Shown: piece by piece, positions 6,448-37,243 of the stretch
How the letters are laid out: every line of letters starts with the position of its first letter
Numbering within the stretch: position 1 is the stretch's first letter
Assembly: GCF_000466965.1 (NCBI RefSeq)
Contig: NZ_BATB01000005.1
Coordinates: forward strand, 58,600 to 122,599
DNA length: 64,000 nt
Direction of reading: 5' to 3'
Origin: Limimaricola cinnabarinus LL-001
GTDB taxonomy: Bacteria; Pseudomonadota; Alphaproteobacteria; Rhodobacterales; Rhodobacteraceae
Program-made: the position numbers and the translations under genes
Notes under the pieces: model-generated
What the model was told of the DNA's origin: nothing
The model's database searches: none
Seen by the model: only the letters and a program-made list of their open reading frames with translations

Positions 6448-6475
6448 TGGAGGCGGGTACCGGAATCGAACCGGT
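6448..6475. other. Probable attachment site within the tRNA-Cys 3' end
   Basis: The integrase gene begins just beyond the 3' end of tRNA-Cys and reads away from it, so the crossover is expected in the T arm/acceptor region. No second copy of the tRNA 3' end is present in the window, so the other end of the element must lie to the left. Position is inferred from layout only. Confidence 0.4.
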
Positions 6476-6521
6476 CTACACGGATTTGCAATCCGCTGCG
6501 TAACCTCTCCGCCAACCCGCC
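6448..6521 (-). tRNA. tRNA-Cys (GCA)
   Basis: Read on the minus strand: acceptor stem GGCGGGT pairs with ACCCGCC, discriminator base is U73 (the cysteine identity element), and CCA is encoded at 6448-6450. The anticodon stem-loop is CGGAT-TGCAAAT-CCG type with anticodon GCA. The T arm ACCGG-TTCGATT-CCGGT is canonical. The gene appears intact, as expected when an element integrates into the 3' end and restores it. Confidence 0.95.
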
Positions 6522-36264: not shown

Positions 36265-36314
36265 GTGCGCCAATCTGCACCCTCCGACGGGAATGGAAAG
36301 TCCCAAAACGAGAA

Positions 36315-36393
36315 ACGGCGACGCCAGGGAGGAGGAGGGGCGCCGCCGTCATGTTCCGGTGCGCGGGCCCTCAGGGAGGAGGAGGAGAACCCG
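36315..36393 (-). ncRNA. Cuckoo/CcsR-type RNA unit 3 (hairpins B, A)
   Basis: Two hairpins, both needing G-U pairs of the minus-strand RNA (two in B, one in A) to give full 9- and 11-bp stems. The last hairpin ends about 50 bases before the LysE-type gene start. No T run follows, so the 3' end may come from processing. Confidence 0.62.
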
Positions 36394-36415
36394 GGACCGT
36401 CTCGGTCGACCAGCT

Positions 36416-36568
36416 CGGACCAGGGAGGAGGAGGGCCCGGCCGGTCTATGCAACGGATGCCTGTCTGGGAGGAGGAGCATCCGTATCCTGAGCGACCGGC
36501 AGGGTCAGGGAGGAGGAGGACCCTGCCGGTCTGATCTACGTGCGCGCCCCAGAGAGGAGGAGGGAGCG
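36416..36568 (-). ncRNA. Cuckoo/CcsR-type RNA unit 2 (hairpins F, E, D, C)
   Basis: Four hairpins with 9-13-base spacers. E is a perfect 12-bp stem with the full loop; F shares the variant loop seen in H (AGAGAGGAGG on the plus strand), so F-E and H-G look like copies of one two-hairpin module. D has the largest loop. The 22-base linker after C contains a GACCG-TCT-CGGTC mini-hairpin, a likely border. Confidence 0.62.
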
Positions 36569-36590
36569 GCCCGTATTCGGGTAACTTTCA

Positions 36591-36705
36591 AGGCGACGGC
36601 ATCAGGGAGGAGGAGGATGCCGTCGCCTCGTTGCGGGTCGCCCAGAGAGGAGGAAAGGCGGTGCCGCGGCTCGCGACCGGTTCAGGGAGGAGGAGGAACC
36701 GGTCG
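36591..36705 (-). ncRNA. Cuckoo/CcsR-type RNA unit 1 (hairpins I, H, G)
   Basis: First unit after the DUF1127 gene, starting 13 bases beyond its stop. Hairpins I (9 bp) and G (12 bp) have identical 14-base loops; H is weaker with a shortened C-rich loop. A 22-base linker that holds a small CCCG-TATT-CGGG hairpin separates it from the next unit. Expected to act by CCUCCU pairing with purine-rich ribosome-binding sites or as a protein/RNA sponge, as proposed for the family. Unit borders are my inference from linker lengths. Confidence 0.65.
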
Positions 36706-36718
36706 GGAACTGGGAAAC

Positions 36719-36928
36719 TTACTTGGTCTCGCTGGCCTCGATCGCGATGCGCTTGATCATCGACCGGGCGATGCCCAGATCGGCGAGATCACGGTCGGTC
36801 AGCGCCTGCAGCTCGTTATAGGTCGAGCGATAGGTCTTGTTCTTCGCGATCCGGTCAGCCAAGCTGGCGCGGAAGGCCGAGATGCGCTGGCCCAGGCCGG
36901 CGCTGCGGGTTTCGGTCGTGTATGCCAT
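36719..36928 (-). CDS. DUF1127 small arginine-rich protein (CcaF1-like)
   Basis: 69 residues from the ATG at 36928 (MAYTTETRSAGLGQRISAFRASLADRIAKNKTYRSTYNELQALTDRDLADLGIARSMIKRIAIEAS). This start is chosen because AAAGAGG lies at the right distance, while the upstream ATG (36946) has no site. The C-terminal block TYNELQALTDRDLADLGIARSxI is the DUF1127 signature. In Rhodobacter sphaeroides the DUF1127 protein CcaF1 is encoded just upstream of the CcsR RNAs, made on the same stress transcript, and influences RNA levels. The same layout here strongly suggests the same operon. Confidence 0.9.
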   Translation of the reverse strand: MAYTTETRSAGLGQRISAFRASLADRIAKNKTYRSTYNELQALTDRDLADLGIARSMIKRIAIEASETK

Positions 36929-37037
36929 GTTGCATACCTCTTTCATTCGGGGCCCGATGTCGGGCCGGTCTGCTCTCTGGTAGGCCCCAGACTGCGGGAC
37001 CGGTCGTCAAAGGCGCCGTATTGCGTCTTCGATATTC

Positions 37038-37065
37038 AAAATAGGCGCATGCTGCGGATGCACAA
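37038..37065 (-). promoter_or_regulatory. Candidate promoter of the DUF1127/small-RNA transcript
   Basis: On the minus strand TTGTGC (37065-37060) and TATTTT (37043-37038, within CCTATTTT) are 16 bases apart, about 110 bases before the coding start. The -10 part resembles the alphaproteobacterial heat-shock sigma type; a nearby TTGAAT does not space well. Weak support. Confidence 0.35.
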
Positions 37066-37243
37066 TCCCCCGGATGGGCAATGCTGCTATGCAGCGAACG
37101 CATGGTAAAAGTTTCATGAAATCATAGGCTTCCCCAAGGTAATTGTGACTTTTTCATGGCTGCTTGCGCTTTGGGCGGCAAAACGCGAGTCTCGCCCGGA
37201 GATCGGGCAAGCGCCTGATGGCAGACAAGGAAACGGATCCCGG

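Follow-up and report, generated by a model that had tools for sequence, protein, structure and literature searches.

In R. sphaeroides, the ccaF1-CcsR locus, which is the CIN1 locus, is described in the accessible parts of the published accounts as giving an RpoHI/RpoHII-driven precursor for a 71-aa RNA-binding DUF1127 protein and four CcsR RNAs, the latter cut out by RNase E (PMC10253847, PMC8625941, PMC8307010). The protein, CcaF1, aids the RNase E processing of the precursor and acts in trans on CcsR levels (PMC10253847), and the direct CcsR target named in the available text is the flhR mRNA (PMC8307010). Action of DUF1127 proteins on RNA versus proteins is debated, and some members work via protein contacts, according to the portion accessible (PMC12501420). 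Each CcsR RNA has two hairpins, both in the Rfam CcsR1 model and in the available text on the R. sphaeroides relative RS0680a, and we infer eight hairpins in a row for CcsR1-4. The cuckoo RNA family (Reinkensmeier and Giegerich 2015) is described with a conserved loop, free stems and two to four adjacent hairpins per RNA. The alpha-r14 sRNAs of Rhizobiales (NfeR1 and relatives, RF02344) likewise combine CCUCCUCCC loops with variable stems, but are described with three hairpins and an RpoD-type promoter of their own.

We have identified nine consecutive hairpins on the minus strand of Limimaricola cinnabarinus LL-001, at positions 36710-36314 of the window, i.e., the whole 64,000-nucleotide stretch analysed. 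Their number agrees with the original prediction, and so does their location within a few bases; the detector that returned nine hairpins in the real DNA returned at most three in 300 dinucleotide-preserving shuffles of the 421-nt region (none in 171, one in 104, two in 21 and three in 4). Neighbouring hairpins were told apart by loop position, a rule used for all array counts given here; an earlier rule gave seven of the nine, as the long outer helices of neighbouring hairpins overlapped. The loop word UCCUCCUC(C/U)C is present in all nine hairpins and the longer CUCCUCCUC(C/U)C in eight, bearing out the anti-Shine-Dalgarno character that had been ascribed to the loops. For 36305-36715, the predicted minus-strand fold has -196.7 kcal/mol (z = -8.58), and the plus-strand fold a z of -2.12. 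Genome-wide, CTCCTCCTCYC has 12 matches, eight of them inside the array. An array of this kind is absent at all four remaining CTCCTCCTCCC matches inspected: one is without a hairpin by the detector, two have a weak single hairpin at the motif, and the last (L120) has a pair of short hairpins with 27 nt between them. In this pair (L120, 445-521; G000:C190:54444-54520), the first hairpin is the weaker one, and the second is strong and has an 8-nt CUCCUCCU loop; perhaps this is a terminator or a stand-alone cuckoo-like RNA. No second chain of two or more such hairpins was detected on either strand of the 64-kb window.

The stem energies range from -11.9 to -27.3 kcal/mol and alternate between strong and weak at all seven inner positions, so the array is read as one leader hairpin and four two-hairpin units, each with a weak and a strong member. 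The leader h1 (36669..36710, -20.6 kcal/mol), conserved in the eight genomes compared below, is followed on the minus strand by h2 (36633..36667, -11.9 kcal/mol) and h3 (36589..36630, -27.3 kcal/mol) in unit 1, h4 (36533..36578, -15.5 kcal/mol) and h5 (36494..36531, -26.5 kcal/mol) in unit 2, and h6 (36450..36487, -12.4 kcal/mol) and h7 (36408..36446, -21.4 kcal/mol) in unit 3. The weak member of unit 4 is h8 (36357..36399, -18.3 kcal/mol), and h9 (36350-36314, -21.6 kcal/mol) forms with the U-rich stretch GUUUCUCGUUUUGGG, which runs to 36302, a predicted Rho-independent terminator (36302..36350, minus strand) conserved in the same eight genomes. In the original prediction h1 to h9 were lettered I to A, and their stems were held to share no sequence, which is too strong: h5 and h7 both begin with GACCGGC, and ATACGG is found in both h4 and h6.

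A CcaF1-like DUF1127 gene of 69 aa (PF06568, 43.7 bits against a cut-off of 23.3) is located at 36719..36928, 8 nt upstream of h1 and on the same strand. Its start codon was picked by likeness to relatives; a longer frame begins at 36946. This gene had gone unreported in the original prediction, and it identifies the locus. The minus-strand order is conserved upstream region, DUF1127 gene, array, U-rich stretch and LysE-type gene, with a divergent mrp-like neighbour. Five further DUF1127 matches exist in the genome, and an array was seen at none of them in the stretches examined.

Rfam at gathering thresholds finds nothing in the nine-hairpin array, nor in the 17- and 26-hairpin arrays scanned. 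The sole match at gathering score in the window is a tRNA gene (6451-6521, minus strand). The best scores over the array are 34.2 bits for CcsR1 (RF02791), below the gathering score of 65.3, and 49.3 bits (E = 1e-7) for ar14 (RF02344), below 58.8. The best CcsR1 match spans h1 and h2, out of register with the weak/strong units; others span h4 and h5, and h8 and h9. These sub-threshold matches and the DUF1127 gene immediately upstream uphold the kinship with cuckoo/CcsR RNAs that had been proposed.

The locus shares with ccaF1-CcsR1-4, as the latter appears in the accounts available, a short same-strand DUF1127 gene immediately upstream, tandem pairs of neighbouring hairpins with CCUCCUCCC loops and an end terminator, here a predicted one. 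It differs in having a leader and four units (nine hairpins) where R. sphaeroides has four RNAs (presumably eight hairpins), in scoring below the Rfam gathering cut-off and in a VtlR-like box, which the accessible parts of the accounts of the R. sphaeroides locus do not describe. Adjacent hairpins, a conserved CCUCCUCCC-type loop and stem sequence free to vary are features of the cuckoo family as well; there are nine hairpins in the array and two per inferred unit, against the two to four per RNA in the family description. Unlike the alpha-r14 sRNAs, the array stands behind a DUF1127 gene. We consider it quite probable that this is a ccaF1-CcsR (CIN1, cuckoo RNA) locus, in which a DUF1127 gene and nine predicted anti-Shine-Dalgarno hairpins are likely co-transcribed under stress and cut into two-hairpin sRNAs, predicted to silence mRNAs at their ribosome-binding sites.

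Eight Limimaricola genomes, the window included, were compared. The original prediction had named conserved hairpins in relatives as one of its touchstones, and the array lies at the same place in all seven other genomes; the order mrp (divergent), DUF1127, array, lysE and yebC (convergent) is kept in all eight and in the outgroup L005. The nine hairpins of the window are the genus minimum: 13 are found in L132 (L. hongkongensis), L133 (L. cinnabarinus) and L134, and 17 in L129, L130, L131 (L. variabilis) and L135 (L. pyoseonensis). For L130 and L131 the detector gave 16, and one degenerate loop was added to each by eye. These are single hairpins near 4060 in L130 and near 3590 in L131 (counted on the reverse strand), in which the loop has lost its CCUCCU core and the stem is kept, so that individual loops can evidently decay.

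The first five and last four hairpins can be aligned in all eight genomes, and the middle of the array varies by four-hairpin blocks, a duplication with a period of ~182 nt being visible in L129. Array length thus shifts by gain or loss of units or unit pairs. In L. hongkongensis, h5 and h9 both have the same sequence as h5 of the window; judging from this identity, the window's h5 is likely a deletion junction. In a three-gene tree the window is nested, if modestly supported (ultrafast bootstrap 71-77 for DNA and 50-61 for protein), among species with 13 or 17 hairpins, which makes contraction the simpler history; the nine-hairpin form was likely contracted from an ancestor with 13 or 17 hairpins.

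The same data could reflect the assembly, if the organism had 13 or 17 hairpins and near-identical units had been collapsed in the draft. All seven congeners have one of these two numbers, h5 matches two separate L. hongkongensis hairpins, and the assembly is in 192 contigs and 94.81% complete; however, neither of the flanking orthologous blocks, h1-h5 and h6-h9, is disrupted, and 9, 13 and 17 share one step of four. Shared repeats of ~38 nt are, moreover, short relative to common assembly k-mers, and we regard such an artefact as unlikely compared with a genuine contraction.

Array length was further surveyed at the best 80 of at least 85 loci found in a DUF1127 protein scan. Among these 80, an array of at least two hairpins lies within ~300 nt downstream on the same strand at 43 loci and on the opposite strand at none; the 43 arrays have 2-17 hairpins (median 8), with more than four in 36 and at least nine in 15, and the 37 array-less loci include 12 from Methylobacterium and five lower-identity DUF1127 loci of Limimaricola. 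Nine hairpins had been called a large, expanded array; with this median among the best 80 of at least 85 loci, counts of 13-17 in the genus and a relative with 26, that view does not hold. The figure of two to four hairpins on which it leaned stands per RNA, but is no yardstick for an array, four CcsR RNAs being co-transcribed in R. sphaeroides according to the text available, with eight hairpins by our inference. In the literature searched, mainly by title, we found no report of longer arrays or of array dynamics, and the founding cuckoo paper could contain longer arrays.

The longest array seen, in L147 (G165:C1:334000-337500, reverse-strand positions 1370-2570), follows a DUF1127 reading frame and packs 26 hairpins into 1201 nt, including 6.5 copies (97%) of a 140-nt repeat unit. 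Genome G111 (L088) has eight hairpins and four tandem CcsR1 matches, three of them over the cut-off; L088 thus reaches the CcsR1 gathering score, which the long arrays in L129, L020 and L147 miss as well. The extent of the locus is hidden at Rfam gathering thresholds. CcsR1-like matches with E <= 0.001 occur in 243 of 295 genomes of the family and exceed the cut-off in 10 of 295, although some of the 243 may be due to chance, since one unrelated control genome out of 14 also gave a match below the cut-off. At G088:C4:271763-272151 and G025:C27:4960-5473 there are four and five CcsR1-like units, respectively, similar in score and with periods of ~103 and ~108 nt, which look like recent tandem duplications. 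Equal-score CcsR1-like matches were also observed on two contigs of one genome (G094:C1:1651932-1652010 and G094:C2:345527-345605).

The two-hairpin periodicity of the window recurs across 36 arrays, where stem energy alternates in 236 of 272 triplets (shuffled mean 178, sd 8, maximum 206), and the median loop-to-loop distance is 41 within units (120 cases) and 50 between them (114 cases; p = 2e-22). Each unit may correspond to a separate processed RNA. No signature of an RNase E site was seen in the linkers, which after strong hairpins are poorer, not richer, in A+U (0.40 between units versus 0.46 within, p = 0.008). The missing A+U-rich cutting sites would suit a long uncut RNA, whose nine tethered loops bind mRNAs, another regulatory RNA or a protein such as CcaF1, as a sponge or a general translation brake; so would the many near-identical loops in one likely transcript, the arrays of up to 17 hairpins in the genus and 26 in one genome of the family, and the effect of CcaF1 on CcsR levels in trans, as reported in the available text (PMC10253847). 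We nevertheless find an uncut RNA distinctly improbable, because RNase E is described as cleaving the R. sphaeroides precursor to release the individual CcsR RNAs (PMC10253847) and because the periodicity is easier to reconcile with separate units than with a homogeneous string. Processing into separate RNAs is the likelier course, with a sponge as a possible alternative.

The predicted hairpins appear to have evolved as paired structures. Pairing extends to 98.6% and 96.0% of cells in the two orthologous blocks, and two-sided pair changes number three in the 5' block (reached by 2 of 500 shuffles) and seven in the 3' block (0 of 500), against at most one in a partner-sliding control; since the window's own row supplied the structure and sequence relatedness inflates such shuffles, these counts are support rather than proof. 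The compensatory changes in seven sister genomes support the selection on structure that had been claimed. When 320 distinct CTCCTCCTCCCT occurrences at 90 loci were chosen by loop motif alone, pairing exceeded that of re-dealt arms at all nine positions (0.73 versus 0.49 at position 6); a reversed-pattern control was of little use, the reversed word being nearly the same motif. The loops are kept while the stems drift, and this weighs against another reading, by which the hairpins merely stabilise or terminate the DUF1127 mRNA with no action in trans. Their place behind the gene, in the likely 3' UTR, and the terminator-like last hairpin are compatible with it; a conserved CCUCCUCCC loop, however, is needless for termination or protection, and the CcsR RNAs of R. 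sphaeroides are described as targeting flhR mRNA (PMC8307010), and we hold a purely local role to be very improbable.

The alignments also confirm the minus strand, on which the original prediction had settled. Across seven relatives, the paired cells comprise 669 Watson-Crick, 60 G-U, 7 C-A and 15 other combinations, and the excess of G-U over C-A fixes the strand. Motif-picked hairpins are mildly informative in this respect (G-U 177 versus C-A 105, shuffled 253 versus 195), and the orthologous alignments are clearer. The decoy RNAs CsrB and RsmY are also strings of hairpins with one repeated loop word, their GGA loops titrating CsrA, whereas the loop strand here is the complementary one. Some plus-strand hairpins do expose GGA, but a plus-strand RNA acting through GGAGG loops as a decoy of the CsrB/RsmY type for a CsrA-type protein is rejected as next to impossible, since no CsrA was found in the 94.81% complete assembly by a search positive in E. 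coli, B. subtilis and T. maritima, the plus strand folds less well (z -2.12 versus -8.58), the 60 G-U against 7 C-A cells favour the minus strand, 43 of the best 80 of at least 85 loci have an array on the strand of the DUF1127 gene and none has one on the opposite strand, and the U-rich end comes after the last minus-strand hairpin.

The region upstream of the DUF1127 gene contains a VtlR-like box for a LysR-type regulator, TGCATAGCAGCATTG (37079..37093, minus strand). It agrees at 13 of 15 positions, and differs at two, with the reverse complement of the VtlR motif CAATGCAGCCATGCA given in the accessible part of PMC12595884, and departs at one fixed position from the core GCAT-N3-TG-N3-T given in that of PMC7486931. 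The box lies 142-193 nt upstream of the DUF1127 gene in all ten loci compared; a match with three or fewer mismatches is found at 42 of 43 array loci and 8 of 37 array-less loci (best 80 of at least 85), and in 4 of 400 shuffles. A similar half-site, TTGTGCATCCGCAGCA, was observed in the window 13 nt downstream of the box (37065-37050). According to the texts available, VtlR activates DUF1127 genes and AbcR2 in Brucella (PMC12595884) and sRNAs in Agrobacterium (PMC7486931). From the conserved box we propose that a VtlR/LsrB-type activator may control the DUF1127-array operon, and that the box may be in use; in the literature searched by title, no link of VtlR/LsrB to a CcaF1/DUF1127-array operon was found. 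A predicted promoter-like element, TTG-N18-CTATTTT (37038..37065, minus strand), has identical spacing in all eight genus genomes and is absent at the outgroup loci L005 and L007; it may resemble RpoH-type promoters.

The array loops are complementary to AGGGAGGAGGAG. The pattern GGGAGGAG-N2-10-ATG occurs at 34 sites in the genome, versus 5 for the reversed pattern, and the looser GGAGGAG-N2-10-ATG at 129 versus 26. One of the 34 sites belongs to the array itself and two fall in a single region, which leaves 32 regions, 20 picked by eye before gene identification and 12 after the transport theme had been seen; 23 reading frames of at least 90 aa were scored. As a control, AAGGAGG-N5-8-ATG was found at 60 places, the first 42 of which in listing order, minus two with GGAGGAG, gave 40 and 25 frames of at least 90 aa (control locus L223 was scanned with NCBIfam only). 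Transport components account for 13 of the 23 GGGAGGAG-site genes and 2 of the 25 controls (Fisher 4e-4), solute-binding proteins for 8 of 23 and 0 of 25 (Fisher 1.3e-3); the first 20 regions alone give 10 of 17 (p = 1e-3) and 6 of 17 (p = 2e-3), respectively. The 13 are TctC (two), TctB, SBP_bac_1 (two), Peripla_BP_6, DctP (three), ABC ATPases (two), an MFS protein and a Na symporter small subunit.

Among the other genes with GGGAGGAG sites are those for UxuA, an alginate lyase and an alpha-amylase; a further one covers the first half of a methanol/ethanol-type PQQ dehydrogenase, for which TIGR03075 is the best NCBIfam model, below cut-off for the fragment. The predicted loop-site duplexes at six target sites range from -17.5 to -19.6 kcal/mol, versus -10.0 for a plain AAGGAGG string, with accessibility ignored. 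The enrichment sets one kind of Shine-Dalgarno site against another, and its source could be the ribosome-binding-site style of transport genes instead of sRNA control. For the three-hairpin NfeR1, candidate targets are, by prediction and in the text available, mostly ABC transport systems. From the site counts, uptake genes are the predicted targets of the array in this organism.

The proposed ccaF1-CcsR-type function builds on gene order, strand, predicted hairpins, their compensatory conservation, weak/strong pairing, the conserved upstream box and the transport excess at this locus. RpoH-dependent stress induction, co-transcription, RNase E cutting with CcaF1 and action in trans on mRNAs are likely by analogy with R. 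sphaeroides, from which they are carried over. Stress and a VtlR-type signal would turn on a single transcript; the DUF1127 protein would be produced from it, and its 3' part would be cut into two-hairpin RNAs, each presenting two anti-Shine-Dalgarno loops. These loops would compete with the 30S subunit for the G-rich start sites of uptake and catabolic genes. More units would presumably mean more silencing RNA per transcript, and we advance, as a tentative and on the whole doubtful extension, that the array may act as a copy-number rheostat, in which recombination adds and removes whole two-hairpin units (9, 13 and 17 hairpins in the genus, 26 in a more distant relative) and so tunes the dose of VtlR-type-switched silencing RNA against solute-uptake genes.

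The kind of locus is already known, while its length range, the turnover of units, the promoter box and the transport bias are new. What was a four-RNA cluster of one model species becomes an array that is widespread, varies in length and has a conserved promoter box, and its predicted targets, the uptake systems, form a class open to testing. The sister species form a natural series of unit numbers, in which one may ask whether it is the dose of the sRNA, and not its sequence, that is under selection.
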